NCBI GenBank assembly: GCA_030737835.1
Contig: CM060852.1
Location: 10,801,065-10,865,064 of the forward strand
Direction: 5' to 3'
Source of the DNA: Acorus gramineus
Lineage: Eukaryota > Streptophyta > Magnoliopsida > Acorales > Acoraceae
Length of the DNA: 64,000 nt
In this document: piece after piece, positions 25,142 through 64,000 of the stretch
Numbering within the stretch: position 1 is the stretch's first letter
How the letters are laid out: each line of letters opens with the position of its first letter
Position numbers and translations under genes: made by a program
The notes under the pieces: generated by a model
Seen by the model: only the letters and a program-made list of their open reading frames with translations
What the model was told of the DNA's origin: nothing
Database searches by the model: none

Positions 25142-26248
25142 TGAGATCCTCGTATTGGTGTTGTGTGAAAGACAATTGGACAAGTGAAGGAGACACTGGT
25201 TTTAGTGAAAGCTTAGGAAGTAAGTGTAATCATACTATAATTGCGTTCCTTTCAATCAATATAATTGCTTATTTTGATGATTCTGTAGTGCTACCATGAA
25301 GAAAAAATCATCTACTCAAGATAAATTTCCATCGTATCTTGCTAACCATTATAAAAAATATGTACATTCACAAAGTTCTCTCAATTTAAAAATGAAGTAT
25401 ATATATACTATAATGAATTATATATGTACTTCTCTATGCAAAAAAAAAAACATATTTCATCTGACATAACATATGCCTCTTCAGAAGAAATTGTAACACA
25501 CTGGCTATACACAGTCACAAAGTTCTCTGAATGTAGAAGAGTTCTCCGATTGAATACCTGAACATAGGGTTTTCTTTATACATTATATTCCAAATAGTGT
25601 GCATAATTACCATGGTTGGACATATAATATAGGCATTGGAAAATGCTAGGGAGAGTCACTTCTATAGTTCCTAACACATTTTAATTTTTTTTGGAGGTAT
25701 ATACTTGTTTAATGAATTACATGACTTCACAAAAAAATGAAGTATATATTTGAAATTTTGAATGAATTGAATTCATACCTCCTTGAATTTTTATTAATAG
25801 ACTATATACTTGCCTAACCAAATATATATTATATTAGAGATCTCACATACTGGATTAGAATTACAGGGATGAGGATGATCGAGTGTACCAGTGCCCTACA
25901 CGCCTTTGTAATACCCATAACCATGCACTACACTCACCGTAAGCATAGACCTAAAGATCATGAATTTCAACACCTCATCAACTACAGAATCTCTAACCCT
26001 TTTTTTTAATAACAAGTGGTGTGAAAAAAACAGCTAGTTAGTCTCAAGTTTCAACATTCCCAGTTTTTAAATAGTTTTGGCCTGTACTTCATAGAATATA
26101 ACTAAGCTTTATTTTGCAAAGCACATGATTTCTCTTGTGAAACTGATGGTTTTCTTTCCTTCTACACCGTGAAACACTGATATGAATTTATTGATGCTAT
26201 GACACCCCATTTGGATACAAGTCCCAGCAAGTTCTACTGCAGTTCTAT
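25142..26248. other. convergent spacer, 3' flank of GULLO copy A
   Basis: No gene. From about 25990 the sequence is repeated near 36240, before copy B, so this point marks one edge of the tandem duplication. Before that it is AT-rich and unremarkable. Confidence 0.5.
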
Positions 26249-27700
26249 CTACAACAGCCCGTCGTCCTCTCTACGACACACCCTCGCTTCAGTGTAAACC
26301 ATCCCAGGCCGACAGAGGTACCCCTTCTCTGGCGCACAGTGCTCATCCCTCGAGCAAATGCAGAGCCCCTCAAGAGCACACCCCTTCTTGTCAACAGTCA
26401 GGGCCTTCCCGCGCAGCCCCAACACCGCATCGCTCCAGTCGGAAGAGAACAATCCTTCCGGGTCATACTTCTCCATTGCCTTGACGAACAGGTCACCCTT
26501 CACCCCTAGCTTCTCCCTCATCCCTACAAATCCAACGTTCCGGTTCTTCCCCAGGTGAGGCATGCCTTTATATTTGAACAGCGCCATCTGCTCGATCTCC
26601 TCCAGTACGTCCTCGTCCAGCCGTGGATCAAGCGGGTCGTTGGACCGGTAGTACGTGATGTCAATGTCCACCGAGTCGGCCGTCTTCCCCAAATAAGCGT
26701 TGAGGCCTTGTTGAACCTCATTAGGAAGCCAGAGTAGATTTCGACACCGCAGAGGGAGTCATGGTTGATGTCTCTCAGTTTCTTTACATCGGAAATGAAG
26801 CTCGTGATGTTGGGCAATGGTATGCTCACGCTGGTCTGGTGGTAGAGCAACCCATGGATCCGCCTGTCCCACCCGCATGCGGTGAGGAGGAGGTCATCCT
26901 TCCCGTTTAGACATGACCCTGTGCACAAAATCATGATCAAACTAACTGATGTGATGTTGATGTGATATTATCATGCGGGTATACCTGAAGTTTGCATGTC
27001 ACTTTGGTTACCGATCACTGGATATTCGGTGAAATCCAGTAGTCTTCCATCCCTGTTCTTGAGCCCGAAACCTGATGCAAGCAGAACAGTCACTTGCCCT
27101 TTCGACAACACGCATTTGCCGGATGGATTATGAGTCGCTTCCAACAACTCCTCTGTCACACCATATCAAACATTTGGTAATTCATTCATTAGAGCACATT
27201 ATATGTAGTTAGTGATTCACAGTGAGTACCAGTGGTCCGGATGCCCTCAATTATGAGGCGGGGCTGTGCCCGGAATCCGGTGAAATCGTTTAGGCCATTC
27301 CCTGTGGTGGTGATGGGAACTCTGAAGTCGTCGCGGAAGATGACCCTGCCTTGTGAAGGGTACCATGTGATGTCGCCGAATTCGGTCATTGATCCGAAGG
27401 CTGCAATTTGATTCTCGAAACCGTCGTCCCCCTCAACACGGTTTGTAATGGAGCGCTTGAACATTGGCTCTAGTTGCAGTGTCACCTGAAAGAGCAGTAA
27501 ATTTTAACTGTTAGAAAGCATTGTCTTCCAATCCTAATAACAAATTTGGGATTCGGTAATCATTCGGTGTGGATTTTATTCAGTACAGTTTCAATAGAGA
27601 AAGGTAAGTTTTTTTTTTCTTTTCTTTTGATGGGTAGCAAGGCAAAGTTAGTGCAGTTAGCATTATGTTTATCCTTAGCATTAATGTTTATCCATGAACC

Positions 27701-27937
27701 ATCCCCGGACTCATGGCGCGGCGGTTAGGACACCTTCCCCCTTTAGGGGAGGAGTGAGGTTGAGTCCTGCTGTGAACGCAGGAAGAGAAAACATGTTGTT
27801 AGTCTCTTTAGGTACTGATGTATTTATGGACTCGCATGCCTAAGTTTCTGCAGCCATGTAGGGTGAGTTATTCAGAGGAGTCTTATGACTTGCACCCTAT
27901 GCTCGGATACATTGCTTTTCTATATATAAAAAAAAGA
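27701..27937 (+). mobile_element. tRNA-derived SINE in intron 1 of GULLO copy A
   Basis: A-box-like TGGCGCGGCGGTTAGGAC near 27714 and B-box-like AGGTTGAGTCCT near 27758, as in a tRNA-like RNA polymerase III promoter, with an A-rich tail ending at 27937. Flanked by ttatccatgaacc (27688-27700) and ttatccgtcaacc (27938-27950), a 13-bp target duplication with two mismatches. About 237 bp, non-coding. The same insertion is in copy B. Confidence 0.7.
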
Positions 27938-28587
27938 TTATCCGTCAACCTGTGGATAGGTATTCAGATGCAGTCAGGCTGTGTCATCATCGTTATAATC
28001 ATAACACTTTGCAGATCTATGTAGTAAAAGCATTTAAATTTAGGGTTAAAGGCATATCTGCATCCCTGTAAACATAGGTAATCCCGTACAAGTCCATTTG
28101 AAAGTTGTGGCGGATACACGAGTCCCTTAAAACTAACAAAAACCTAATTATCGTTATTGGGTTAAAATTTTATTCAAATTTAAAAGAATATTTTATCATC
28201 ATGTAATTGTGCAAACACTATAATCTCCATAAATAATCATAAAAATAAATTAGTCCATACAAAAATTAAATTATTCTTGTAAGACTTTTTATGTTTCTTT
28301 CATTTCCATTGAGGTATTGATTGAAAATGGTAAAAAATTTGAGCATAATTTAATAATTTCATGGTTATAGGTTAAAGTTAAATAGGATAAGTTGGGTTAT
28401 GATTAATTTTTGTTAAAACTAAGAATGTATATAGGTATTTATGAGTTTTCAAAGATTTGTAAGTTTGTTCAAACTTTGATAAAGATTTATATGAGATTAT
28501 TCATGTAATGTTTTTAAACTCTTACATTTATTGATAAATTTCCTATGTGAATGTTCATTTATTCAACATGGCCGAAATTTGTCCAAC

Positions 28588-28650
28588 CCACGCATGGCGT
28601 GATTGTTAGGACACCCCCATCACAGGGGGGGTGCATGGTGGAAAGGACGA
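28588..28650 (+). mobile_element. truncated SINE head
   Basis: ATGGCGTGATTGTTAGGACA followed by a CCCCC...GGGG hairpin resembles the first 50 bases of the SINE at 27701. The 3' part is missing. The same fragment is near 38920 in copy B, so it predates the duplication. Confidence 0.4.
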
Positions 28651-29247
28651 AAAGGGCAAAAAAACATGGCTGAAATTTAAACCATGTTTTTATCAAAAGC
28701 TTAATCATTTCATGCCAGATCGGCCATGTGTATGGATTCATTATTTATATCTCTAACAAACTGATGATGATGATAATGATAGTAAGAATTAAAGACCAAC
28801 TTTATTTATTTATACATATAAATATTTGGATAATGCATAATTGAAATCCAACTATTTCTCATTAAATGCAGGTAGACAGGTAAGAAAACATCAACCAAGA
28901 TATTCATTTATTTCTATTTTTTGTATGGTCCGTTGGTGGTTGCATCTTCCATGAACATTTAAAAACATAAAATCATTCATTGCATACAAGACCTAAACCT
29001 TCGGTTAATCAATTCCGTAAGAAAATTATCTCCAAGTACAACCTAACACCATTTAACACCTTTGTCGATTACTTATTAATGTAAGGACTTGTTGTGAACC
29101 GATCTTACTTGTTATGCCAACCAAAAAGCAGAAGAGCTGATAGAATTAGTTACAAATATATACACCAATATTACACCTTATAAATTTACATAGGCATACA
29201 AGCTGCCTTCTTAATTATATTCACCAACTACTTAACAATTCTTATAA

Positions 29248-29281
<34 letters not shown>

Positions 29282-29472
29282 CACAAAGGGAAAACAAACC
29301 ATATATGTGAATAATCTATAGATTCCGTGTATACATGTGATCTTATTTTTGTGTCTTCGGAGAGTTCTAACCACCGTTCAATCGCACCACAATCAAACAA
29401 AGCAGTTATCTGTATCAAAAAAGCTTATGTCATATCCAAATGAGAACAACGGTAGTGTTGATTGGATGTGGC

Positions 29473-29975
29473 TAGGGCTGGTAAATGAATTGAGTAGCTC
29501 GGGCTCGGGTTCTGCTCCAGTTCGACTCGGTTAAAGCTCGCTCAGGCTCGTTCGATTAGACAAACGAGTCGATCTTCAACAATTTTTAAAGTTCGGTTTG
29601 TAAACGAGCCGAGTCCGAGTCGAGCCGAATCCGAGTCTAGACGAGCTCATTTACTTAACAGAAAAAATGAGCCCGAACTTATGTTACTTTCACATGTATA
29701 AAGTATTGGGATTTGTGAAATGTAACTTTTCAAATATTAAACAAGATTTTTTTTTAGCTAAACGAGCCCGAACAAAGCCTTGATTCAAGCTTTGGCTTGA
29801 CTTGTTTAACAAACGAGCCGAGACGAGCTTCAACCAAGCTTTTTACGAGCCCAACGAGCCGAGCTTGAATACAAAATGAAACTCATTCTCGAGCCGAGCC
29901 CGAGCAGAGCCTGATACTAAATGAGCCGAGTCTGCACAGATCAGAGCTCGACTTGTTCGACTCGTTTACCACCCA
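29473..29975. mobile_element. hAT-like MITE, TAGGG.TGGTAAA family
   Basis: Left end TAGGGCTGGTAAATGAA, right end CTCGTTTACCACCCAATG, with repeated CGAGCC/GGCTCG words inside. Same family as 22795-23822 and 52322-52729. Lies in intron 1 of GULLO copy A and is not found in copy B. Confidence 0.6.
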
Positions 29976-30235
29976 ATGTTTACATATAGTTTTCATTATT
30001 ACATAATATATATTACAATATTTGTATTTTTTTTATTATACAAATTTAAATTCATATTTATGTCGATTTTGTGTTACAAAATTAAAAAAAAAAAACTAAA
30101 CTAAAAAAATTATAACAACATTTTTCAAAACCTAAGTTATAAAAACTATTATCACTCTCATGTCCAAACGAAGTCACAATATTTATCAATCTAGAGTAAA
30201 TATTTTTTTTTTCTAAAAACAAATTAAAAATAAAA

Positions 30236-31081
30236 GGGAAAAATCGATCTAGCTCTATGAAAACTTATGAAAATTAGAAAAAGTCTCTGTAAAATTGACA
30301 AATCCCCTCAGGTCCTTATCTTATTAGATAATATTTATTTGATCAGATATGTGGTTAACCCTAACCATGCATGGTAAATTATTGTTATACCCTTTTAAAA
30401 TTTATTTTCTTTATTAGAAAAAATTTATATAACTCCCTGAAAACTTATGAAAATCGAAAAAAGTCCTTGTGAAATTAAAAAATCGTCTTAACTCCCTGAA
30501 ATCTTCTAAAAATCGTAAAAAATCCATGTGAATATCTAAAAATATATACTGATTTATTTAAATTTTATGAAACAAATTATAGTTTTATAGTCAACGTGTT
30601 ATGCTTTTTATTGGTAGTAATTGAGTTAAGAATGTATTATAGAATTTTGATTTGATTTTTAAATTGTTTTCTCTACTGATTTTGTAATGAAGTTAATGAA
30701 ACTATAATTTTTTTTTGTTCAATCTCTATAATGAGATTGAGGAGGGAAAAATGTTGAAAAATGATTCAATTTTGTAGATCAAATTAAGGTTTGACGGATT
30801 TTTTTTTTTTTTACAGATGAAGATGATATTTCAAGATATGAGGATATTGAAAATGACGAGGGTATTTTTGTCTTACAAAAGAACTAAATCTAATTATATA
30901 AAGTTTGTAGGGACTAAATCCAATTTTAATAAATTTCTGATGACTTATTTCAATATACTCTTGATGGGGGATTAAATTCGTTAACCATATACACTTTGTG
31001 AGGATATATGATGATTTTATGATTTTAGAATGACTTTTTATGATTTCAAGAAGATTTCATAGAGTTATGAATATTTTGTCC
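30236..31081. mobile_element. Mutator-like MITE in intron 1 of GULLO copy A
   Basis: Ends resemble GGGAAAAATCGATCTAGCTC and its complement. Flanked by aaaataaaa (30227-30235) and aaaatgaaa (31082-31090), a probable 9-bp target duplication with one mismatch. The same family as 40172-40932. The corresponding place in copy B, just before exon 1, has no insert. Confidence 0.55.
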
Positions 31082-31864
31082 AAAATGAAAACAGAACAAA
31101 TTAAAAATAAAACCTTACTTGAGAGATAACCCCCAAGACACCAAGAGAAACCTTAGCCGCCAAGAGCTCCTCATCCCCCTCCACCAACCCCACCACCCTC
31201 GCATACTTACCATCACCACCAGCACTTGTACTTGGAACCACTAACCTAACCCCAACGACGTACTCATGCACCGCCGGTCCCTTCCCACTCAACGAGCTCC
31301 CATGGGACCCAGTCCCGATCAACCCACCCAAAGTCATCCCCTCCCAAACGGCGAGTGAGGCAGAGCCAACCCGTTCTCCGCCGCCGCATCGATGAGACCT
31401 CGAAGGGTAATGCCACCCCCTACAGTCATCCGAACCCTCAAAGGGTCCACGTCCATGACACTGTTTAGGTTTTCTGTGCTTATCACGAGCCCTTCCCCGT
31501 CCGGTCCGCCTGGGCACGACAGTTTGGGTATGCTGTGTGAGTACACGGTGACCACCTTCATGTGTTGCTTCTTTTGGGAGGCGTCGGAGACCACGGAGAG
31601 GAGCTCGGACTCGTCGGCCGGGCGGGCGACGGAGGCGGCTTTACAGGTGGTTCTGTCTGGGTAGATGCCGTAGCCGTTGGTGACGATGCAGTTGACGTCG
31701 CCGGCGCTGCATGTCACGGTTGGGGGGGGAGGGCTCGCGTGGACAAGTGCTGATAGGGTTGTAAGTGTGAGGAGGAGATGAGACAAGTTGGTTTTCATGG
31801 TTAGGGTTTGTTGAGGTTTTGTATTGATATTGGTGTATAATCTGTGTTTTTTTTTGAAAATTAG

Positions 31865-31865
31865 G

Positions 31866-31914
<49 letters not shown>
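31865..31914. repeat. (TA)n(GA)n microsatellite in the copy A leader
   Basis: About 12 TA units followed by about 14 GA units, 65-115 bases upstream of the GULLO copy A start codon. On the coding strand this is a CT-rich then TA-rich leader, as in copy B. Confidence 0.85.
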
Positions 31915-31918
<4 letters not shown>

Positions 31919-31984
31919 TTAGTGAGAAGGATTGGCTTCCATGGAAGTAAGCTGGGAAGTGGTGGAAGGGGTCTGTCTTTTTAT

Positions 31985-34900
31985 ATATCATTGACCAACA
32001 TATATCTATACTGTATATAATTATTATATTATGTTAGAAAATTATTTTATTTTAGTTTTTATATGTGTTTTTTTATGTAAACTGTTGAAACAGTTTTTTT
32101 TTTCATTTGAATTTGTGTCAGTGATTTGAATATCATTTCATCTTTTCAAAGTGATTTGTAGCTTTGTTTTAAACTGTTTTTGGTTATTAAACGGTTGTGA
32201 ACTGTTTTGTTTCTCTGGGAGTGCTTTGGCATCTCTTGTAATAAAATATATGGGGTAGGGATGTTGGACAGAGAAGATATTATATTATACAAACCAGTCC
32301 GTCTAACACACAGAAAAAAGAAAAAAGAAATCAGGGAGCACCTACAGTGAGTCCGTCCGAGACAAACATTGAAATTAAAAGAAGAGAAAGCGGTCTCCTA
32401 TTCTTAAAGATTTACAGGTGTTCGCTAAAACCTCTTGTCACTTGAGTGCACTTTGAGAAGAATCAAAGATCGTCGTATCTTCAGAGTGGATCGTCATTGA
32501 ACCATTGCATCAAAGTAGGACGGAATCTGCTTTTCAGAAAGTGTTTTTACGTGCTCTGATTCACTAAATTTTTTAGATTTTTTTAAATCTATATTTAATT
32601 CTAATTTTGTTGTGATTTTCAAAATTAAAAAATTTAGTGTTTTTCCGACATATTACATTCTAATGCACCACGGTACGTCCAAAAATCACCCCACCACCGA
32701 ACTAAAAATTACACACTGTACATTACAATGCGTCCAAATTTCTCCTTCGGATGGTATTTCTGTCATTGTAGTCAGAACTGTTCCTCTGCTGTGATTCACG
32801 AAATCCTGTCTGTTCTTTCGCTCTTCATCAATTTTTTTTGTAAATTTTTTTAGGTATGGTTTGTTGGTTGGAAAGTGAAGAGAAAATACTGGCCTCGTTT
32901 TCACCACGGCTCGTTGATTGGAAGGTGCAGAGAAGGTATCATTTTCTTTTATGGATTTTTTATTTTTAACTTCATAAATTATATGATTTAATAATCGATC
33001 TCCCATTTCTTCGTATATTAATTTGAGTCTTCATTTTAAAAGATATGTTTTTTATAGTCTCTTAAAATGATTAAAAAGAAAACTAAATAATTTAAGGATA
33101 GGTCTCTCCCAGGAACTAATGAGAAACATACCCTTCGAGTTTAAAAACTAAAATTGAAATATGAAAAAATGAGATATCGATCACTAAATTATATAGTTTA
33201 CAAGGACTAAAAAATAAAAAACCCTTTCTTTCTTTTTTTTTTTTTTTTTTTTTGATACTGGAATTTTTTGTTGGGGGCGTTCTCGCTTGGACGTGTTTTT
33301 GGTGCAGAAATTTTTTGGGTCTGGGTGTTCTTGGTTGGAGGTATTTTTGGTGCAAGAATTTTTTTTAATGCATATCTTTTGCCGGCATTGTTGATGAAAC
33401 ACACGGATTCTTTGCCTGGCTTTTAAGTTCTATTGAGCTTTGTTGTTCTTCATGTTTTTACTTGAAATTCATAAGATGATCCAATTCATTAAATAATTAC
33501 TCAATATAATTTATTAAATATGACTCATATCATTATTTTATAAGAAACTTGTAAGTCTTGCTAAAGATTTATAATATATCTTGATTCGTTAGTGTACAGA
33601 ATATAGCTTTTAATTGTTCTTCCATTCTTGCTAAAGGTTAATAATATATTCCGAAATGGAACCTACATCCAGCCTATATAGAATACTTTTATACGATAAT
33701 CTATATTATGCATATGTTTAATTTTTAGTTCATACGATATGCTATACGGTGCTATATTTTGTCTTTCTATATTTTATTATGAAATATAACAGTTTCATGT
33801 GATCAATTTTTTCATTCGTTTCTATTTATTTTTTTAAAAAATTGTGCTTGTTTATGAATTAAATGTATTTCTGATCATACATGCATTCATTACATCTTAG
33901 ATCTGTTTGAGATATTTCATATCACATAGTATGATGAAATTTCTTCAACTGTCTATGTCTTGAACAATTTAAGTGATTTCATATAACATAGTATTATGAA
34001 ATATCTTGAATTGTTCATATTAGGCAGTTTGAGAATACAAAATTTCTGTATACACTTGTATAGTCGGAGTTCAAAACACAAAAACCTTTCTAGGCATTTC
34101 AACAATCAAATTCCTCTTTCAATTCACAATATTTTTTTATTATTTTCATTATCTCCTTATGAATATATTTCGAACAAGTTCAAATATAAGAAATTACATA
34201 CGTTTATTCATAACTCAATTCTACTCATCAAACATGTTTTCCAACAGAAAGAATTTATGACCTGTTCATATTATGATTCATTGAAAATTCCCACATTTCA
34301 TTCAATGTCAGTTGAGACTTGAGACCTCATCATGCTTGCAAAGCGCATAGCCTATTACTAGGAATAACGCATTAGACTATATGTTGTGCATAATTTTTGT
34401 TTATAAAGAATTTTAAACATGTCACTTCGCTTTGTATATTAGGCAGACGTACATACTTTAAATAACATCATGTGTATATATACTTTGAAGAACTTCGGCT
34501 AATCTTCTTGTATTCTGCAGTTCAAAGTACCACTTTTGCAGGTACACTTAAAAGAAGATTTGACATTTTTTATCACAATTAACATTTATTCAAAAATTAA
34601 AGCATAATTATACTGCTCTTCAAACATGTATTCTTCTCTCATACTCAACAATGGAGGAAAGAACACAAAAATGAAGAACAAGAATGTATCGTGACTCCCA
34701 CGGGCAAAAGGCTTATGTGTAATAGCACCGGCCTATACATTTTCATTGTAAAAGACATTATATTTTCATTGTAACATATTGCACATTCTTCTCTCTTTTC
34801 TATGACAGTGCAGGAAGTCATTCATTCATTTGTATATTTCATTGTAAAAGACTGTGAATTTTCATTGTAACATACTGTAAGTTTTAGGAGCCACTGTCTC

Positions 34901-35084
34901 CTCTACTCTAGAACAGTCTCAACTTACAGTTGGTTAACTTTTGTTCATTAATCATGAGGCCCAAAATATATGTTTATTTTTTTTTTCTCTAGAAGATGTA
35001 CTTACTACAATGATATTATGACACATTTTATGGCAGATTATATTTACTGCAATACATTAGTACGCGCAAATGACCAACATATAT
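31985..35084. mobile_element. 3-kb insertion in the 5' flank of GULLO copy A
   Basis: Copy B's 5' flank runs without break through tgaccaacatatat at about 42840. In copy A this 14-mer occurs twice, at 31992-32005 and 35071-35084, with about 3.07 kb between. The upstream homology resumes after the second. A 14-bp duplication suits a target-primed retroposon, but I see no reverse transcriptase, LTRs or clean poly(A) tail. The insert is AT-rich with no gene I can support. Confidence 0.5.
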
Positions 35085-35201
35085 GTTGCATGATCTAACG
35101 TGTTCAAAGAAGGGTTAAAATGGATATGTTTGATTTAAATTGGGAACTATTGAAAAAGGAACATATGTAATGGCGGCATCCATTCCAACATTGGACATTT
35201 A

Positions 35202-35430
35202 GGGTGCGTTTGGTTGCACGATTGCGTAGCGTTTGCGATTGCAGGAAGCTGCGTTTGCAATCGTGTAACTAAACAGTTTTACTATAACAGTTTCCTGCAC
35301 CCAGATTTTAGGCAAAGAGTACCCAAAGCTACGATTTCAAAATGCTGAGAAAATGAGCTTCCTGCATAATTAGTTTTAAAACCCAGATTTCTACATAATC
35401 AGTTTTGTAATCGCGCAACCAAACACACCC
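35202..35430. mobile_element. 229-bp PIF/Harbinger-like MITE with visible empty site
   Basis: Inverted ends GGGTGCGTTTGGTTGCACGA and its complement (ending CAACCAAACACACCC). Flanked by tta at 35199-35201 and 35431-35433. In the duplicated flank at about 42965 the sequence reads ggacatttagtttta with one tta and no insert, which proves insertion and the 3-bp duplication. Confidence 0.85.
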
Positions 35431-35791
35431 TTAGTTTTATCTTTTCTTTCATTTCAAAGTTCTATCTTTGCGGGTAAATATAAATTAGTTTATGAATATA
35501 TACCAATTTTTTCCATTCCCATATTGGACTTTTAGTTTAATCTTTTTTTCCACATCAAAGTTCTATCTTTGAAGGTAAATATTCTATTTTATAAATTGGA
35601 AAATTAAATTAGTTTATGGATGTTACCAATTTTCTCATGATGTTTAATTTGTTTAATAGTACATTATCTATTACTTACTTATTAAAGGGAAAGTGACCCA
35701 GCTGCGAAAGTGACCCAGCTGCTTTTTCATTTTTATTTTTTACTCTATCATAAATTTAGTAATTCCTTATATCCTATTTATTCAAAATTTA

Positions 35792-35895
35792 AGATTTCAA
35801 ATTAGATTTATATAAATCATAAATATATATTTTAGATTTCAAAATCAGATTTATATAAATCATAAATATATATTTTAGATTTCAAAATCAGATTT
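35792..35895. repeat. 43-bp tandem duplication
   Basis: Two and a half copies of a 43-base unit starting agatttcaaaatcagattta. The duplicated flank near 43316 has only one unit, so the repeat arose after the GULLO duplication. Confidence 0.75.
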
Positions 35896-36229
35896 AAGAA
35901 AAATCATATCAATATATTGAAATTTTATTAATAAAAAATTACATATATTATTAAATCTATCTCAATGAATTTTAAAAAAGTTTGTTATGTTATTTTTATT
36001 ATAATTTGAAATAATATTACATGGTATTCAAAATTACTATATATGTTAAAATCATGAAATGAGATTTTTTGAATAGTTTAATATTCTATAAACATTTCAT
36101 CTATATGGTGTAATTCATATGAATATTATAGTTACGAATAATATAATATAGAAGCACATAGAAATATGTATTTATTATTTTATTTAATCATTATTAAATT
36201 TTAACATTTTTTGTTATATTATTTACATA

Positions 36230-36245
36230 TACCACGAATCTCAAC
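36230..36245. other. junction of the GULLO tandem duplication
   Basis: Sequence to the left (35.1-36.23 kb) matches the 5' flank of copy B (42.85-43.7 kb). Sequence to the right matches the 3' flank of copy A from about 25990. The switch occurs near aatctcaacccttttttt. This is the breakpoint expected of an unequal crossover. A (GT)n microsatellite lies just after it, at 36338-36361. Confidence 0.7.
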
Positions 36246-36566
36246 CCTTTTTTTTAATAACAAGTGGTGTGAAAAAAACAGCTAGTTAGTCTCAAGTTTC
36301 AACATTCCCAGTTTTTAAATAGTTCTGGCCAGTACTTCGTGTGTGTGTGTGTGTGTGTGTATAATATAATATAATATAATATAAGTAAGCTTTATTTTGC
36401 AAAGCACATGATCTCTCTTGTGACTGCAAAGTTTTGAGAATCAAATAAAATCCCAGCAATTCTCACTTATACAAAACTGACGGTTTTCTTTCTTTCTACA
36501 CCTTGAAACACTGATACGAATTTATTGATGCTATGACACCCCATTTGTATACAAGTCCAGCAAGGG

Positions 36567-39500
36567 CTACAGCACTTCCATCTTCAACAGCCCGTCATCC
36601 TCTCTACGACACACCCTCGATTCAGTGTAAACCATCCCGGGCCGACAGAGGTACCCCTTCTCCGGCGCGCAGTGCTCGTCCCTCGAGCAAATACAGAGCC
36701 CCTCAAGAGCGCACCCCTTCTTCTCAACAGTCAGGGCCTTCCCGCGCAACCCCAACACCGCATCCGTCCAGTCGGAAGAGAACAATCCCTCCGGGTCGTA
36801 CTTCTCCATCGCCTTGACGAACAGGTCCCCCTTCGCCCCGAGTTTCTCCCTCATCCCTACAAATCCAACGTTCCGGTTCTTCCCCAGGTGAGGCATGCCT
36901 TTATATTTGAACAGCGCCATCTGCTCGATCTCCTCCAGTACGTCCTCGTCCAGCCGTGGATCAAGCGGGTCGTTGGACCGGTAGTACGTGATGTCAATGT
37001 CCACCGAGTCGGCCGTCTTCCCCAAATAAGCGGTTGAGGCCTTGATGAACCTCATTAGAAAGCCAGAGTAGAGTTCGACGCCGCACAGGGAGTCACGGTT
37101 GATGTCCCTCAGTTTCTTTACGTCGGAGATGAAGCTCGTGATGTTGGTTAATGGTATGCTCACGGTGGTCTGGTGGTAGCGCAACCCGTGGATCCGTCTG
37201 TCCCACCCGCACGTGGTGAGGAGGAGGTCATCCTTCCCGTTTAGACATGACCCTGTGCACAAAATCATGATCAAACTAACTAATGTGATGTTCATGTGAT
37301 ATTATCATTCTGGCATACCTGAAGTTTGCATGTCGCTCTGGTTACCGATCACCGGATATCCGGTGAACTCCAATAAACTTCCATCCCTGTTCTTGAGCCC
37401 AAGACCTGATTCGAGCAGAATAGTCACTTGCCCTGTCGACAACACGCATTTGCCGGATGGATTATGAGTCGCTTCCAACAACTCCTCTGTCACACCATAT
37501 CAAACATTTGGTAATTCATTCATTAGAGCACATTATATGTAGTTAGGGATTCACAGTGAGTACCAGTGGTTCGGATGCCCTCTATTATGAGGCGGGGCTG
37601 TGCCCGGAATCCGGTGAAGTCGTTCAGGCCAATCCCTTTGGTGGTGATGGGGACTCTGAAGTCGTCGCGGAAGACGACCCTGCCTTGTGAAGGGTACCAT
37701 GTGATGTCGCCGAATTCGGTCATTGATCCGAAGGCTGCGATTTGATTCTCGAAACCGTCGTCCCCCTCAACGCGGTTTGTGATGGAGCGCTTGAACATCG
37801 GCTCTAGTTGAAGTGTCACCTGAAAGAGCAGTAAATTTTATCTGTTAGCAAGCATTGTCTTCCAATCCTAATAACAAATTTGGGATTCGGTAATCATTCG
37901 GTGTGGATTTTATTCAGTACAGTTTCAATAGAGCAGGGTAAGTTTTTTTTTTCTTTTCTTTTGATGGGTAGCAAGGCAAAGTTAGTGCAGTTAGCATTAT
38001 GTTTATCCTTAGCATTAATGTTTATCCATGAACCATCCCCGGACTCATGGCGCGGCGATTGGGACACCTTCCCCCTTTAGGGGAGGAGTGAGGTTGAGTC
38101 CTGCTGTGAACGCAGGAAGAGAAAACATGTTGTTAGTCCCTTTAGGTACTGATGTATCTATGGACTCGCATGCCTAAGTTTCTGCAGCCATGTAGGGTGG
38201 GTTATTCAGAGGAGTCTTATGACTTGCACCCTATGCTCGGATACATTGCTTTTCTGTATATAAAAAAAAGATTATCCGTCAACCTGTGGATAGGTATTCA
38301 GATGCAGTCAGGCTGTGTCATCGTTATAATCATAACACTTTGCTGGTCTATCCATACAGTAAAAGCATTTAAATTTAGGATTAAAGTCACCTGTATCCCA
38401 GTAAACATAGGTAACCTATACAAGTCCATTTGAAAGTGGTGGCGGATACACGAGTCCTTTAAAACTAACAAAAATCTAATTATCGTTATTGGGTTAGAAT
38501 TTTATTCAAATTTAAAAGAATATTTTATCACCATGTAATTGTGCAAACACTATAATCTCCATAAATAATCATAAAAATAAATTAGTCTATGTAAAGATTA
38601 AATTATTCTTATAAGACTTTTTATGTTTCTTTCATTTCTATTGAGGTATTGATTGAAAATGATTAAAAATTTGAGGATAATCTAATCATTTCATGGTTAT
38701 AGGTTAAAGTTAAATATAATTGGTTGGGTTATGATTAATTTTGTTAAAACTAGAGATGTATATATGTATTTATGAGTTTTCAAAGATTTGTGTGTTTGTC
38801 CTAACTTTGATAAGAATTTATATGAGATTACTCATGTAATGTTTTTAAACTCTTAAATTTATTGATAAATTCCTTATTTGAATGTTCATTTATTCAACAT
38901 GGCCGAAATTTGTCCAACCCACGCATGGCGTGGTTGTTAGGACACCCCCATCACAGGGCGGATGCATGGTCGAAAGGACGAAAAGGGCAAAAAAACATGG
39001 CTGAAATTTAAACCATGTTTTTATCAAAAGCTTAATCATTTCATGCCAGATCGGCCATGTGTATGGATTCATTATTTATATCTCTAACAAACTGATGATG
39101 ATAATGATAGTAAGAATTAAAGACCAACTTTATTTATTTATACATATAAATATTTGGATAATGCATAATTGAAATCCAACTATTTCTCATTAAATGCAGG
39201 TAGACAGGTAAGAAAACATCAACCAAGATATTCATTTATTTCTATTTTTTGTATGGTCCGTTGGTGGTTGCATCTTCCATGAACATTTAAAAACATAAAA
39301 TCATTCATTGCTTATAAGACCTAAACTTTCGGTTAATCAATTCCGTAAGAAAATTATCTCCAAGTACAACCTAACACCATTTAACACCTTTGTCGATTAC
39401 TTATTAATGTAAAGACTTGTTGTGAACCGATCTTACTTGTTATGCCAACCAAAAAGCAGAAGAGCTGATAGAATTAGTTACAAATATATACACCAATATG

Positions 39501-42500
39501 ATGTCGCCGAATTAGGTCACCGATCCAAAAGCTGTGATTCGATTCTCGAAACCGTCGTCCCTCTCGACCCGGTTCGTGATCGAGCGCTTGAACATGGGCT
39601 CTAGTTGCAGAGTCACTTGAGAGAGCAGTAATTTTTTTTTTTCTTTTTTTCTGTTAGAAAAGCATTGGCTTTTGGCTTCTAATAACTAGTGTAGCTAGTA
39701 ACTAGTAACTGTAGTTAGCATTATTGTTTATCCATGAATGGGAATGCAATTCAAGTTGGACCTGGATACGTATTCACATGCAGTCAACCAGTGTCACCGT
39801 CCCTAAAATTATAACACTACAAATAGTGATGAGGGTTAACAATAGTAGGTTGGGTTATTAACTTATTGTTAAACTTTGTTGATAGCACAGGTGTATATGG
39901 ACTTTTGTGAGTTCTAAAATATTTGTATGTCTGTCCGTCTCAACTTTGATGAAAATTTATATGGGATTATCTTTATTTATAAGGACGTGAATGTTTTTAA
40001 ATCTTAAATTTATTGATATTTTTTCTTGTATAGATACATTGATTCAAGGTGATTGAAATATAAAGCATGTTATCCATCAAAAGCTGAATAATCATTTCAA
40101 GACGAAGATGATGATTATGATGCTGATAGTAAGAATTAAAGACTAACTTTTTTTTTATACATATTTGGATAGGAAAAAATCGATATAACTCTCAAAAAGT
40201 TAGTTAAATCAGTTTTAGTCTATGTAAAATTAAAAAATAGTCACAAGTTCATATGTCATTAGAAAAATATCGTTTCAATCCCTATCATCACCCCAACTAA
40301 TCTTGTACATGTTAACCCTAACTACACAATAAAAGTTACTAGAATACTCTCACTCTTATTTTCAAAAAATCGATATAGCTTCCTAGAAACTTATAAAAAT
40401 TGAAAAATGTCCCCAAAAAATTGGCAAATCTCCTTAAGTCTCTATTTCATTAGATAATATTTATTTTAGTCTCTACCATAACCAAAACTAACCATATCTT
40501 AGTTAATTGTAATTATACATGATAAATTATTGTAATACCCTTTCAAAATGTACTTGATAAATTACTATAATACACTAACTAGATTTGTGGTTGACTTTAA
40601 GGGGATTTACTGATTTTACTGAGACCTTTTTTTATTTTCATAAGTTTCTAGAGAGTTATATTGATTTTTTCCTTTTTTTATTGTTGGTGAGTAGAAGATA
40701 ACTAGAGAATTTTCAGGAAAAAAAAAACAGTGACATTGTTGTCATCAAAAGGACTAAATCGGATTTTTCGTATTTGTAGGGGCTTATTTGAATGTATTAA
40801 TTAGAGCAATTTAACTCATAAACTAAATGCGTTAATCATACGTACTTTCTAGAGACCTATGATGATTTTTCAATTTTACAGGGGCTAAAAAAGATTTAAC
40901 TAATTTTTCATAGAGTTATATCAATTTTTTCCATTTGGATAATGATAAATCAAATCCAACTCTTTCTCATCATATACAGGTAGACGGGTAAGAAAACATC
41001 AACTAAAATATCTATTTATATACATTTTTTTGTATAGTTGGTGGTTGCGTCTTCCATGAAAGTTTGTTTTTTTAAATATATCATTCATGCATACGGTGTA
41101 TGTAAAGCTACTCAATAATATTTTATATGGACTCTTAAGATCTAAACCTTCATTTAATCAATTCCGTGTCAAAATTGTCACCAACTACAACCTAACCTTT
41201 GTCGATGATTACTTACTTGGTTCTTCCATAAAAAAAAGCATTAAGCCAACTTAAAAGCGGTAGAGCTTTTCAAAAAAAAAAAAAAAACTTAAAAGCAGTA
41301 GAGCTAATAGAAATAGCTACAAATATATACACCAATATTACACACCTTATAAATTTACATAAGCATACAAGCATTCTTCTTAATCATTCACCAACCACCT
41401 AACAATTCTTTCAATGTATATATATACATATATCAAGGGAAAACAAACCATATATATGTAAATAATCTATAGATCGTGTATATACATGTGATCATATTTA
41501 TATGATTCTAGACCGTTCTAATCACCACTCAATCAGATCACAACCAAACAAAAAATGACATATTTCTTATCTATACTAAAATAGCTATTTATCTTAAAAT
41601 AACTTATATCATCATATCCAAACAAGGGTAGTCTTGGCTGGATGGGCCTACAGCCTGACCAATGTTAATTTTATATATAATTTTTATTATTACAATATTT
41701 TTTTATTTATACATAGAAAATCTTAAATCCATCATATTATTTATTTTAATGAAAGCACGTAATTTTATCTAAGGATTTATTTGGATTCACATATGGGCAT
41801 TTCAAAATTCCTAAAAAACTAAACTAAAAAAGAAAAATTTTAAAAACCATAAAAACTACGTTTTTAAAAGCTAAATTTTAAACATGATATCATAAGAACT
41901 ACTATTTAGCAAAACCTTATTTATCATATCTAGAGTAACTATTTTATTTCTAATAAAAAAAAATTAGCCTATCCAAAAAAAAATTAAATTAAAAATAAAA
42001 ACTTACTTGAGAGATAACCCCCAAGACACCAAGAGAAACCTTAGCCGCCAAGAGCTCTTCATTTCCCTCCACCAACTCCACCACCCTCGCATACTTACCA
42101 TCACCACCAGCACTTGTACTTGGAACCACTAACCTCACCCCAACGACGTACTCATGCACCGCCGGTCCCTTCCCACTCAACGAGCTCCCATGGGACCCAG
42201 TCCCGATCAACCCACCCAAAGTCATCCCCTCCCAATAGGGTGAGTGAGGCAAAGCCAACCCGTTCTCCGCCGCCGCATCGATGAGCCCTCGAAGGGTAAT
42301 CCCACCCCCTACAGTCATCCGACCCCTCAAAGGGTCCACGTTCATGACACTGTTTAGGTTTTCTGTGCTTATCACGAGCCCTTCCCCGTCCAGTCCGCCT
42401 GGGCACGACAGTTTGGGTATGCTGTGTGAGTGCACGGTGACCACCTTCATGTGTTGCTTCTTTTGGGAGGCGTCGGAGACCACGGAGAGGAGCTCGGACT

Positions 42501-42702
42501 CGTCGGCCGGGCGGGCGACGGAGGCGGCTTTACAGGTGGTTCTGTCTGGGTAGATGCCGTAGCCGTTGGTGACGGTGCAGTTGACGTCGCCGGCGTTGCA
42601 TGTCACGGTTGGGGGGGGAGGGGTTGCATGGATTAACGTACTGAGAAGTGTTGATAGGGTTAGTGTGAGGAGGAGATGATGATGAGACAAGTTGGTTTTC
42701 AT
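36567..42702 (-). CDS. GULLO: GULLO-type L-gulonolactone oxidase, copy B, intact
   Basis: Four exons: 42702-42007, 37819-37564, 37486-37319, 37252-36567, giving about 601 residues with consistent phase. Plant GULLOs oxidise L-gulono-1,4-lactone towards ascorbate, probably in the apoplast; activity of individual members is often weak. Features: signal peptide about 1-26; FAD-binding PCMH domain with [23 protein letters not shown] and [17 protein letters not shown] domain with [29 protein letters not shown] and GKNRNVGF; Cys-rich tail [20 protein letters not shown]. Length and domain order match the family. Intron 1 is 4.2 kb and contains a second, decayed exon 2 (39503-39618), which must be skipped. 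The leader directly before the ATG is (TA)n, 5' of it (CT)n on the coding strand. With copy A broken, this may be the only functional member here. Confidence 0.93.
38035..38271 (+). mobile_element. tRNA-derived SINE in intron 1 of GULLO copy B
   Basis: Nearly identical to 27701-27937, with the same boxes, A-tail and target duplication (38022-38034 and 38272-38284). Being at the same intron position, it was copied with the gene rather than inserted twice. Confidence 0.7.
39503..39618 (-). pseudogene. relict GULLO exon 2 inside intron 1 of copy B
   Basis: Reads like the first 38 codons of exon 2 (EPMFKRSITNRVE, then DDGFEN) but with TAA in place of the glutamate of the MTEFGD segment, and it stops abruptly at 39503. 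The splice acceptor has drifted from CAG to CAA, moving the AG by one base, so splicing there would also break the frame. The rest of the ancestral exon is missing. Sequence from 39620 to about 41340 is a diverged second copy of the intron. Confidence 0.85.
40172..40932. mobile_element. Mutator-like MITE in the older intron copy
   Basis: Ends GGAAAAAATCGATATAACTC and, inverted, GGAAAAAATTGATATAACTC (one difference). Flanked by a perfect 9-bp duplication atttggata (40163-40171 and 40933-40941). The younger intron copies read tatttggataatgc once, near 28825 and 39150, i.e. the empty site. About 761 bp, non-coding. Confidence 0.8.
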
Positions 42703-42705
42703 GGT

Positions 42706-42762
<57 letters not shown>
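42706..42762. repeat. (TA)n(GA)n microsatellite abutting the GULLO copy B start codon
   Basis: TA units from about 42706 to 42730, then GA units to 42762. On the coding strand the TA run ends 3 bases before the ATG at 42702, so the 5' leader itself is a microsatellite and likely variable in length. Confidence 0.85.
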
Positions 42763-42766
<4 letters not shown>

Positions 42767-42839
42767 TTAGTGAGAAGGATTGGCTTCCATGGAAGTAAGC
42801 TGGGACGTGGTGGAAGGTGTCTGGCTTTTTATATATCAT

Positions 42840-43730
42840 TGACCAACATATATGTTGCTCTAATGTGTTCAAAGAAGGGTTAAATTATATTGGATATGTT
42901 TGATTTAAATTGGGAACTATTGAAAAAGGAAGATAAGTATTGGGGGGCATCCGTTCCGACATTGGACATTTAGTTTTATCTTTTCTTTCATTTCAAAGTC
43001 CTATCTTTGAGGGTAAATATTAAATTAGTTTATGAATATATTAATTACCAATTTTTTCCATTCCCATATCGGACTTTTAGTTTAATCTTTTTTTCCACAT
43101 CAAAGTTTTATCTTTGACGGAAAATATTCTATTTTATAAATTAAAAAATTAAATTAGTTTATGGATGTTACCAATTTTCTCATGATGTTTACTTTATTTA
43201 ATAATGCATTATCTATTACTTACTTATTAAAGAGAAAGTGACACTGTTTTTTTCATTTTCATTTTTATTCTATCATAAATTTAGCAATTACTTATATCTA
43301 TTTATTCAAATTTTAAGATTTCAAATTAGATTTACATAAATCATAAATATATTTTTAGATTTGAAAATCAGATTTAAGAAAATCATATCAATATAATAAA
43401 ATTTTATTAATTAAAAATTAAAGATATTATTAAATCTATCTCAATGAATTTTTAAAAAGTTTGTCATGTTATTTTTATTATAATATAAAATAATATTACA
43501 TGCATGGTATACAAAATTACCATATATGTTGAATGCATGAAATGAGTTTTTTAAATAGTTCAATATTCTTTCGTCTATATTGTGTAATTCATATCAATAT
43601 TATAGTTACAAATAATATAATATAGAAGCACATAGGAATATGTATCTATTAATTTATTTAATAATTATTAAATTTTTGCATCATTTTATTATATTTTTTC
43701 AATATTATAACGCATGCTTTTAGCACATGT
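42840..43730. other. 5' flank of GULLO copy B, duplicated at 35.1-36.2 kb
   Basis: Aligns by eye over about 0.9 kb with the flank of copy A. It lacks the PIF-like MITE, the 43-bp tandem repeat and the 3-kb insertion. No gene inside. Confidence 0.7.
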
Positions 43731-57382: not shown

Positions 57383-57529
57383 CGTGAAACTAATCATGCC
57401 TCTTTGCATTTTAAAACAAAACCCAAATTCATCCAAGGCTGATGATTCTTAAAAAAAATCTGTATAATTTATGATGATGTGCCCAAGAAACCAAACACTT
57501 CATACCTCAAACTGTCTAGAACAGCTGAA

Positions 57530-60500
57530 TTACAGAGGCTTGTAAGCGATCCACCTCTCAAACATATTATAACACTCCTTTGGCCTGCGCTCTGGCGATG
57601 TGTGCCCCCCACCCTATGAATTCAAGATCTGCTAGCTTTTAAAGATTGAAACCGCTCAAAAAAGACTTACAAATTTAGAGTTCGCAACCATGCAGTGCAT
57701 TTGATGAATGTGAGTTGCTTACCTTTACTAGTGCAAAGGTCAAGTTGTTGGCATATGACCTAGTGTAACTATTTTGAAAAAAGAAAAGAAAATTAAAATT
57801 AAGTTAGATTAACTCCCTTGTGAGGTGAATTCATTGGGAAAAAAAAAAAAGTGATATAATGATCTCACCCTGCAACTTGGCCATCCACAGACCAAGGCCT
57901 CCAGTCATCGACTATTGGAAAATTGAGGGTTTTTATCCATGCTTGTGTTCCCACATGAGGGACATCCAAATCATGATCACCACTATTCAAGAACAAGAAA
58001 TATATGCCATAACAGGAATGGAAATTATGGAGCAATCAGTATGTATTCACATAGAATTCTGAATGTGGAAAATTAAGCTCACCTGTACACCAGAGCCCGA
58101 AAACCTCCAGTCGTGAGGATGTGATGATATGGAATACTGCTTGGAATGTCTTGGACATATGGTACATCAAAGTCACACCTTACCCACTCTTCAACTGTGT
58201 CCTGTATTATTATAAGCACAATATTTGTTAACTTATGAAACAAATTTAAGTATTCAACGACAATGTTGGGAGTTTCGTTATTGATACCAACAATACCCAA
58301 AGATACTGAATATAACATCATAAAAATGGATGAGTTCCACCAAAAAAAAATTGCAGTTACATACCATTTGAATATGAAGAGCCTCTCTAACTGTATCATT
58401 GTTTGCCCAATAGTTTGATAACATGAAACCATAGCTCTGCAGATAAATATCATTGTCTGTAAATATTTCTGTTTAAAAATCGTCAATTCTAAATGGATTT
58501 TGGTTGTTAATGTGTTTAAAAGTCAGAACTGTTTTATATAAAAAAAAAAAAAGGTTGGTTGAAAGTAACTTTTATTAAAAAAATCAGTTACTAATAGCTG
58601 TTGAGAATTTGAATTTTCAAATGGGGCCATAAAGCATTACCCGACATTTGATGTCAGGAAGTAAGAGTGGTGGCATAAGCTCTAAAGATTGATCCACCAG
58701 ATGTCTCATCTGTCTTGGGTGGGGGAGAAATGTCTCACATTTTGGCTCCAAAATATGACTTTTACTTAATCCTGAGATGCACTAATTAACAACAACATGT
58801 CAGTTCTTCCTCCTAGCAGAATTGAAGAGAGATGAGATTAATGAGATCAATTGTTGAAGTAGAACACCTCCTTTATAGCCCCAACATCCCTCACACATTC
58901 TGCATTCTTCGGCTTCGCATACTGTTCTCCTCTGCAGCTCTTCTTAGCTGACTAAAGGATCACAAACAAGTGAGTTTTTTTTTTTATTATTAACATTTAT
59001 TTGTCACAATATGGATATACATTATACCATGTATAGCTCTTCGGATATAAGTCCCATTCCAAAGGAGTAAGGGACAAACGAGTTGTCATCAAACTTTGCA
59101 TCTGTAAATGGATTTCCAGCCACATAACCCTGAGATATTCATCAATAATTAATGCTATTAATTAGCACCCAAGATGGAAATACTAAATAAATAGGCATAG
59201 TCTGACTAGAGCGACGCATGATAAATCTTACGAGGGACTATAAAATAATTTTGTGAAAAATGTTACACCCAGTACATTTTACGGTCCAAAACACAATCCA
59301 CACATGTTTTTATTTTTTATTAAAATCATATATCACATCTAATATCTAATGAAATATATACTTTTATAAAATGTAAAATATATACTTTAATGAATTGAAT
59401 GATATCATTTATAAAAAATATAAGGTATATACTTCGTAATAGTAAGTTAAAGGGGCTAGACTATAAAAAGGACTAAATATAACATCTCTCTCTCTAATTT
59501 TATTGATGAAAATTTGTGTATATAGTTGCATAGAATCCTTATTAAATTGACTAAAAAAAATCTAAACTACCTAAATCACAACCAACTATATCTAAATAAT
59601 CAATCCATCCACAAATCATCTTATCCTAGCATCCTTAAAACATAACTAAGACTACTAACAAACAAAATAAAGAAATAAAACATAAATTGTATCCCATATG
59701 CTGCATCACTATCTCACCAAATCAAATTAGTATGCAATGTGATAGAGAACAAACATTTTTAAGTGTATACCTTAAGATTGAGGAGTGGTTGTTTTCCAGC
59801 TTCAATATCTGGCATGATATATAAAGTTCAAGGAAGCTTGTCAATCTACTTGAAGAGGCAATGCTTGCTATTCTAAATGATTTCAATTGTCTGAATTTGA
59901 ATGCATGGCATAACTTCTCTATTGAATTCCCATAAACTAGAACTAGTTGTAACACAAGGATTACCTTTCACAATTTCAAGTGTAATGATGGGAGAAATCT
60001 TTCCAGAATATGAATCACCGCCAATGTAGAGAGGATTCGAAAAGAATTGTGGGTGATCATCCAGCCACTTTAAAGAACAAAAATTGTCCGAGGAGGAAAC
60101 ATTTCACATAATTAAGCTTTGCCCATTAAAATTTCAATAACTCAAATTTTATTCAGGGGATCCCACATTTTGAGTGCCACTAAATCTATATATACTTTCT
60201 CTTTCTCTTTGTGTGTTTTGTAGTTTTATTTGTTTGTCACTATTTTATTTATTTATTTTATTTTTTATTTATAAAGAACTAAATCAAATTGAGTTATTTA
60301 AATTTTTATTTCAATTTAATATTTTTTGTTGTTCCTTTTACGTTTATTTTTATATTCTTTTATTTTCTGTTCTTTATTTATTTTTATCAGGATTTTTATT
60401 TCAAAACTATTATATCTTATTTTTAAATTATCCATATTTTCTTGGTTGTTCTTTTTTTCTTACCATGATTTTATTTTACATATATATTATTTGAAAATAA

Positions 60501-61590: not shown

Positions 61591-62760
61591 TCTTCTCTTT
61601 GATTCTTCTTCACAAACACTCTGTTTCTTTGGTGATGGAAGAGACGAGAAAAGTAGCCAAGTTTCGTTCACGAGAGGTTCAGATGTCCCAGTTGGAAGTC
61701 GTTGATATTGTTCGTGTTCGATCTTTAATTTGTGGTCATGGTACGCAACCAAAGCAGGTGAGCAGTTCTATGAGAGCGACATTTCACACGGACATGACTG
61801 ACACTTTTGTTGTGATTTCTATAGACGCCAACCGGTATATGAAATACACACGGAGTCCGAATCCAATCAGAATTTGCTTCGATCAATTCCATCAACATCC
61901 AATTACACAACTTATAAATTAAATTATAAAATTTATAAATCGAATCAATCCCATCAGCATCGAATCATACAGTCTATAAATCGAATTACAATTTATGAAT
62001 CGAAACTGTACAGCTAATTGTTTGATACATGTTCAATTCTCCTATTTTATATAAGTCTATCGACAAGTCAGGTCCAGACTGGGTATACATACTTAATGAA
62101 AAAAGTGCATTCAATCTGACAACAAAATTTTAATCTTTTCACTATTATTGTAAATTGCATAGGGTAAGTGGAAGGAAACAATTCCAATAATCATTATATA
62201 TTCAAATTTAAACTAATAAAACGCTTCCAATTTTATTTTTTTTATCTCCGTCTCCTACTTCCAAGTTCCACTTCGAGCATCCAAATTGTACCTGTCAAAG
62301 AAAACATTAAAATGGAATTACGAGACATGTAGTTAAGTGATGGTTGGAAATGGAAATTCATTGTCATGAAAAAATAAGTGAAAATCAAGGATGGAACACA
62401 AAAAAAAGATTAAAAAAAAGCTTGCACTCTTTTTTTTTTATAATAAAATAATATATATCATCTTCTAAGATGACTTTTATAAAAAGAAAAAAGAATTTTA
62501 AATATATATTTCAATAAATTATATAGATTTATTTATAAACTGTATAAAAAAAATTTATTGAGATATATACCCCATTACAGGTACTACAAATAGTTAACAA
62601 AGTATATGGGATTAAACTGATCGTGCATGCCTCTTTGCATTTTAAAACAAAACCCAACTATTTCCAAGGCTGAATATTGATCAAATCTGTATAAATGATG
62701 ATGGTGTGCTCAAGAAACCACACACTTCATACCTCAAACTGTCTATCTAGATCAGCTGAG
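61591..62760. other. spacer between SCPL 2 and SCPL 3
   Basis: SCPL 2 promoter (61.6-61.9 kb), then AT-rich DNA. At 61920-62000 a short motif around AATCGAATCA is repeated. From about 62620 (tgcctctttgcattttaaaa) the sequence matches the 3' flank of SCPL 2 near 57397, so the 3' flanks were duplicated with the genes. Confidence 0.55.
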
Positions 62761-63984
62761 TTAGAGGGGCTTGTGAAAGATCCACCTCTCAAACATATTA
62801 TAACTCTCTTTCGGCCTGTGCTCTGGCGCTATGTGCCCCGCACCCTGTCAACACACACACATTACATATATGAGATATCTCTTACGAATTCTAGATTTGC
62901 TCGCTGTCAAAGAATGAAACCACTAAAAAAAGTCTAACAAATTTAGACTTCACAATCATGGAGTGCATTTGATGAATTTGAATTGCTTACCTTCACTAGT
63001 GCAAATGTCAAGTTGTTGGCAAATGACCTAGTGTATCTGTTTTGAACAAAAACATATTTTGAATTAGGTGAATTCATGAAAAATTACATTCTATGTGATA
63101 TAATGATCTCTCTAACCCTGCAACTTGGCCATCCACAGACCAAGGCCTCCAGTCATCGACGATTGAAAAATTAAGGGTTTTTATCCATGCTTGTGTTCCC
63201 ACATGACTGAGAGACAGATCGTGATCACCACTATTCAAGAACAAGAAAGTAATAACATGAGCGATTAGTATGTATTCACATTGAATTCTGAATGTGGAAA
63301 ATTAAACTCACCTGTACACCAAAGCGCGATAACCTCTAGTCGTGAGGATGTGATGATATGGAATACTGCTTGAAATGTCTTGGACATATGGTACATCATA
63401 GTCACACCTTACCCACTCTTCAACTGTGTTCTGTATTATTATAAGCACACAATATTTGTTAACTTCTTAAACAAATTTAAGTATTCAACTACAATGTTAG
63501 GAGTTTCGTTGTTGATACCAACAGCACCCAAAGATACTGTATATAACATCATAAACATGGATAAGTTCTACCAAAAACAAATTGCACATACATACCATTT
63601 GAATACGAAGAGCCTCTCTAACTGTATCATTGTTTGCCCAATAGTTTGATAACATGAAACCATAGCTCTGCAGATACACATCATTGTTTCAAAATATTTC
63701 TGTTTCAAAATAGTCAATTCTAAATGGAATTTGGTTGTTAGGTGTTAAAAGTAAAAAAAAAAAACAGTTTTATAAAAAAGAAAAAATCAGTTAAGAATAG
63801 CTTTTGAGAATTGCAATTTTCAAATAGAGCCATAAAGCATTACCCGACATTTGATGTCAGGAATTAAGAGTGGTGGCATAAGCTCTAAAGATTGATCCAC
63901 CAGATGTCTCATCTGTCTTGGGTGGGGGAGAAATATCTCACATTTTGGCTCCAAAATATGAGCTTCATTCAATCCTGAGATGCA
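62761..63984 (-). CDS. SCPL: serine carboxypeptidase-like protein 3 of the array, cut by window end
   Basis: Six C-terminal exons visible: 63984-63844, 63667-63596, 63430-63312, 63230-63117, 63036-62991, 62844-62761, with exon lengths identical to SCPL 2 and very similar introns, so this pair duplicated recently. The 5' part, including the catalytic Ser exon, lies beyond 64000. The Asp block is SGDHDLSLSH: the SGDHD core is kept but the usual V-P pair is L-S. The His block is GAGHIAPEH instead of GGGHT(A/S)PE. The frame is open throughout. Specialisation or weakened catalysis is possible but unproven. Confidence 0.88.
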
Positions 63985-64000
63985 CTGGTTAACGACAACA

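Follow-up and report, generated by a model that had tools for sequence, protein, structure and literature searches.

Sequence comparison supports the view that copy B, one of two tandem genes for a GULLO-like oxidase in Acorus gramineus, is a chimera, and that the damaged exon lying inside its first intron is exon 2 of an older paralog, here termed X. The most probable origin, to which a probability of roughly 0.68 is given, would be an end-joining fusion of X with an A-like tandem neighbor, followed by patchy conversion. The window, that is, the whole stretch of 64,000 nucleotides analyzed (C6:10801065-10865064), was compared with itself and with the genome (398.6 Mb searched, 137 contigs).

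The self-comparison of the window resolved two gene units, and the coding exons of copy B were placed within the second of them as follows:

25987-36230, minus strand: copy A unit, lying head-to-tail with copy B
36236-43705, minus strand: copy B unit, with ends homologous to those of the copy A unit
42007-42702, minus strand: copy B exon 1, with the donor CAA/GTAAGT
37564-37819, minus strand: copy B exon 2 (live), part of the joined coding sequence
37319-37486, minus strand: copy B exon 3, part of the joined coding sequence
36567-37252, minus strand: copy B exon 4 to the stop, part of the joined coding sequence

The joined coding sequence of copy B (42702-42007, 37819-37564, 37486-37319 and 37252-36567, minus strand) is open over 601 codons. 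Relative to it, copy A carries 1-base deletions, one each in exon 1 and exon 4, and its joined exons are frameshifted, with 27 stops read. The copy B protein matched the TIGR01677 profile (pln_FAD_oxido) with 798.4 bits against a cut-off of 383.1, full-length over residues 28-589, and PF22906, PF01565 and PF04030 all scored over their cut-offs. In this full-length match, and in its GULLO2-like C-terminal domain, B resembles the plant GULLO-like FAD oxidases, and it is by the profile match, not by the HWxK motif, that B is assigned to that family, its activity being predicted. HWxK is a conserved motif of aldonolactone oxidases; it is not known to be a defining character of the pln_FAD_oxido family. 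The motif was absent from exon 4 of A, of B and of A2, D and B2, the genes of a second assembled array described below, all five of which read HLGK. The C6 copies differ here from the two C3 paralogs fetched, which carry HWGK: PHLGKNRN was present in 5/5 C6 copies and PHWGKNRN in both paralogs. Elsewhere in the window, an open frame at 8769-10637 encodes a LysM receptor-like kinase of the NFP type (LysM1-3 and kinase domains), and a direct repeat (57395-58797 and 62626-64000) is 82% identical between its copies; a 147-residue stop-to-stop frame in the copy at 57395-58797 gave no Pfam match at E 0.001.

In gene sense, intron 1 of copy B runs from an old tract (42006 to 39617) through an exon 2 relic (39616-39499) into an A-like intron (39499-37820). 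The following features were recorded:

39617-42006, minus strand: old part of intron 1, putatively of the older paralog, extending between the exon 1 donor and the relic; ~16% differences and ~7 indels per 100 aligned bases relative to A
40172-40932, no strand given: transposon-like insert with inverted ends within the old intron, ATTTGGATA being present at both flanks (read by eye)
39499-39616, minus strand: exon 2 relic, the first ~117 nt of exon 2, with an in-frame TAA, the acceptor AG changed to AA, and no donor
39496-39502, minus strand: non-homologous junction of the relic and the A-like intron; base 39499 fits both sides, and the junction is identical in B and B2
37820-39499, minus strand: A-like section of intron 1 (U1), in which A and B alleles form a patchwork among the copies compared

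The original prediction that two intron copies lie here in series was borne out, the repeats of both copies being collinear and their common ending (39447-39499 versus 41286-41338) 89% identical. In the window self-comparison, A 25987-29171 corresponded to B 36236-39499 at 92.3% with gaps, the exon 2 stretch (27365-27505 in A and 37699-37839 in B) was repeated at 39496-39636 at 86-87%, and the diverged intron copy (40933-41552) corresponded to 28824-29401 at 68.6% with gaps. When the diverged copy was aligned with the relic kept and the transposon-like insert excluded, the best scores were 171 bits against B's A-like intron and 177 bits against A's intron, versus 27.4 bits or less for 60 other window slices of approximately equal length, so that the expected similarity to A's intron was found. 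A truncated, stop-containing exon 2 had been noticed at 39503-39618 and is indeed present, with TAA in frame, its coordinates now being mended to 39499-39616. Both intron copies also share an old dispersed repeat (39822-40026 and 38709-38867), for which the matches listed numbered at least 34, in at least about 30 other genomic places, at 70-79% identity.

When the genome was searched, the exon-1 end of the old intron turned up a second time, 125 kb away and at 99% identity, in a second array that carries the three genes A2, D and B2. The B2 relic (C6:10965603-10965717) is identical to the B relic at 115/115 nt, and around it B2 is 98.7% identical to B over 3,240 aligned columns and contains the same junction. 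B2 also displays features of its own, namely private substitutions, a ~78-base deletion in the adjoining intron and an insertion of ~7.6 kb in U1 (C6:10957728-10965323) that B does not have. More widely, C6:10812732-10865064 (window 11668-64000) corresponds to C6:10919343-10992296 in long collinear blocks that are 95-99% identical. The duplicate starts at the first base after a 10,000-N stretch (10919343, equivalent to window 11668), and its other end is the equivalent of the last window base, abutting the other 10,000-N stretch. Since it is bounded so exactly by N stretches, the duplicate is probably a second haplotype left unpurged in the assembly, with GULLO genes A-B on the one and A2-D-B2 on the other, B2 being the presumed counterpart of B. 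The same observations, namely a duplicate whose two ends coincide exactly with nearby 10,000-N stretches, mark the region as imperfectly resolved and would accord with an assembly artefact at 39.5 kb. A local misassembly is nevertheless highly improbable, because the same junction and relic recur in B2, which carries its own substitutions, deletion and U1 insertion; a check of the join in B, as far as the assembly allows one, did not show a misassembly.

The genes of the second array also record exchange between the copies. A2 has the exon 1 deletion in common with A, and 24 stops in its joined exons, while the frames of B2 and D are open. The promoter, exon 1 and intron 41339-41553 group A, A2 and D against B and B2, whereas exons 2-4 group A and A2 against D, B and B2. 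At positions where A and B differ, D carries the A allele in 9/9 cases within 39501-38902, is mixed within 38901-38302, and carries mostly B alleles from 38301 down. These groupings, together with the allele pattern in intron 1, mark D as an A-5′/B-3′ recombinant, of the kind that would be left between A and B if the two had exchanged unequally. Because D is without the exon 1 frameshift common to A and A2, it is not a direct product of today's A, and is either older than that lesion or was converted afterwards. A2 and B2 are likewise mixtures of A and B alleles within 38.9-37.9 kb, which points to repeated exchange in the intron. Between the copy A 5′ leader and its promoter-like region lie ~3 kb (32005-35071) that are mostly common to A2 and D and are absent from B, and from B2 save for two short matches.

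At the join itself, GACATC is followed by ATATTGG; the corresponding sequence is GACATCACATGG in the live exon and GTGTAATATTGG in copies A, A2 and D. Comparison with both shows that exon 2 abuts intron 1 at a single base that fits both sides, and that the join has no filler, zero extra bases being present. An unequal exchange had been proposed at this point, and in the form of an in-register crossover it is contradicted by a join between an exon and an intron that have a single base in common. The join is non-homologous, and an end-joining fusion of tandem neighbors fits it better than an in-register crossover does. Filler DNA is a frequent mark of end-joining fusions, and is not required.

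The relic reads CAA/GTG where the live exon 2 acceptor reads CAG/GTG, and it is without the donor and the distal part of exon 2. Over 38 codons, 10 synonymous changes, 5 non-synonymous changes (one of them the stop) and no indel separate it from B's live exon 2, with dS 0.53 and dN 0.06. Observing 5 or fewer non-synonymous changes among 15 has a P of 0.017-0.045 under a dead-from-birth model (live-branch omega 0.05-0.3) and of 0.0016 under neutrality throughout. Since the non-synonymous changes are few and no indel is present, the relic probably functioned for a long time as an exon in an older paralog. Decay of methylated DNA was considered as the source of its divergence and is not favored, with 4 G-to-A/C-to-T changes in the relic versus 5 in reverse (15 differing codons between relic and live exon, tallied by eye). 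The relic is also older than its surroundings: it differs from A at 11/26 synonymous sites, compared with 36/229 for the remainder of B exon 2 together with exons 3-4 (Fisher P 0.002), and 10/26 for the relic compares with 10/173 for exon 1 (P 2e-5, or 0.0035-0.005 with the C3 genes as yardstick). On the same codons, and again with a C3 paralog as yardstick, the relic distance relative to the C6-C3 distance has a median of 0.50 (95% 0.17-1.27), while that of B exon 1 from A is 0.09 (0.04-0.16); the relic comprises only 38 codons, and most of these age estimates come from tens of synonymous sites.

The old exon 2 had been described as a scar that splicing must ignore. The relic is intronic, as that description holds, but splicing need not skip an intact exon, since both normal splice sites are gone. 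It could be that the relic is not silent, and that a shifted AG (CAAG/TGAC) and a cryptic donor at 39436 (CAA/GTAAGA) yield a poison exon in some transcripts, lowering B output. The predicted exon (39615-39437, 179 nt) is stop-bearing, and its donor has a score of 4.2, compared with 5.5 for the live exon 1 donor, -1.0 for that of exon 2 and 4.7 for that of exon 3, these scores being rough and taken from a small matrix that gives the live exon 2 donor its -1.0. Such an exon is very unlikely; if it does form, B and B2 would differ in expression, because the donor stretch is missing from B2.

The divergence of B from A is far from uniform. The promoter is 6-8% different and exon 1 has dS 0.06, while dS is 0.155-0.231 in exon 2, depending on the part, 0.205 in exon 3 and 0.178 in exon 4; by synonymous counts (10/173 in exon 1 versus 41/254 in exons 2-4, P 0.001) exon 1 is the younger. 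U1 is only 3.8% different from A, with 6 indels over 1,674 sites. Differences in the old intron were found at 129/826 aligned sites (15.6%), with 55 indels, within the duplicated unit (39621-41338) and at 74/470 (15.7%), with 33 indels, beyond it (41339-41986), counts that derive from rounded identities with inserts excluded, and with 979 and 194 + 32 gap columns, respectively, not counted. The evenness of this divergence is aligner-dependent, and the alignment is uncertain where indels are dense: with looser gaps the old intron differed at 21.0% of 1297 sites within the unit, 10.8% of 204 at 41339-41552 and 16.9% of 284 near the exon 1 donor, and MAFFT gave 18.1% of 210 for 41339-41553.

The original prediction had an A-like 3′ half joined to the 5′ half of an older paralog. 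B does appear chimeric, with the relic as the older paralog's exon 2, but neither half is of a single age. The 5′ half is not uniformly old, its promoter and exon 1 contrasting with a relic dS of 0.5-0.6, and the 3′ half was not recently copied from A, since exons 2-4 (dS 0.15-0.23) adjoin an intron that differs by 3.8%. A simple recent chimera, with A's 3′ half set onto an old 5′ half, is therefore too simple for a gene with a young promoter and exon 1 and with exons 2-4 at dS ~0.18. On these distances the old tract is limited to the intron and the relic, and exons 2-4 of B are seen to have split from A well before the last homogenization of U1; the near-identity of U1 would reflect later patchy exchange, as the adjoining exons differ at dS ~0.18.

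The same figures bear on two other origins. One is a one-sided templated repair, in which a break in B's own exon 2 would have been extended on its 3′ side by copying ~1.8 kb of A-like intron and exon 2 start before being end-joined to the 5′ side, so that only U1 and the exon 2 start are foreign. The same anatomy would thereby arise from one event, and U1 is the part of B closest to A, the promoter and exons 2-4 differing more. This repair predicts, however, that the relic shares its age, measured against A, with the rest of exon 2 and with exons 3-4, which the Fisher comparison above (36/229 versus 11/26) contradicts. Nor is the first part of B exon 2 closer to A than the rest (5/25 versus 5/36 synonymous), although exchange among B, B2 and D may mask such a signal. 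The repair is consequently considered unlikely. Somewhat less likely again is an old internal tandem duplication of the exon 2 start and part of intron 1 within one gene, from which A later lost the extra copy. The common ending of the two intron copies would permit that loss by recombination, and under looser gap settings A is more similar to the stretch immediately past the unit than to the unit itself (10.8% versus 21% different). Against this, the duplication predicts that 41339-41986 is as A-like as U1, and it was found to be 15.7% rather than 3.8% different, with 33 rather than 6 indels; moreover, the relic spent most of its evolution under protein constraint. The duplication is thus disfavored by the divergence of the intron past the unit, less clearly so with the looser aligner.

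Neither a nucleotide search with 39480-40170 (40/224 candidates scored) nor a protein search gave an intact X among the matches listed. The 44 listed for 39480-40170 comprised B and B2, five live C6 exon 2s, three C3 GULLO exons and 34 instances of the dispersed repeat, and the protein search returned at least five genes on C6, at least three loci on C3, at least one place on C7 and at least one on C64. The array does contain A-like genes in the orientation that a fusion needs, the order and orientation of X itself being assumed, with two 10-kb N stretches nearby.

The end-joining fusion would then have proceeded as follows. In a tandem GULLO-like array, a long-functional paralog X would have been followed downstream by an A-like copy of like orientation. 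A break in exon 2 of X would have been ligated, with no use of homology, to intron 1 of this neighbor, with loss of the 3′ part of X and the 5′ part of the A-like copy. The fused gene could still work as exon 1, intron and exons 2-4, provided that splicing removes the two intron pieces together, and the first 117 nt of exon 2 of X would have been left behind and then died. One fusion does not predict a promoter and an exon 1 that have diverged less than the old intron, and additional conversion is needed to account for them; later conversion within the array would have made the promoter and exon 1 of B more A-like and homogenized the A-like intron. Finally, an unequal exchange in intron 1 between A-like and B-like genes probably produced gene D of the other assembled copy.

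If this reading is correct, B is a readable record of the fusion of tandem plant genes and of its partial smoothing by conversion, in which the promoter and coding parts look young and the old history survives in an intron. It also cautions against dating an exchange by the near-identity of an intron, and against gene annotation being led astray by a relic exon. With its additional gene D, the second array provides an internal check on the sequence of events.

The closest precedent is the maize p2/p1 chimeric Myb gene, in which neighboring tandem paralogs were fused and for which the authors invoke end joining (Goettel and Messing 2009, PMC2686159). The enlarged intron of p2/p1 contains a pair of imperfect direct repeats, 2,377 and 2,701 bp long, one after the other; the order of the exons and the coding sequence are preserved, and both break points are intronic, with 50 bp of filler at the join (PMC2686159). 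B is alike in having two diverged copies of one intron in series and a non-homologous junction, and differs in that one of its break points is exonic, which left half an exon behind as a dead remnant, and in having no filler at the join. B is ordinary in kind and unusually legible.
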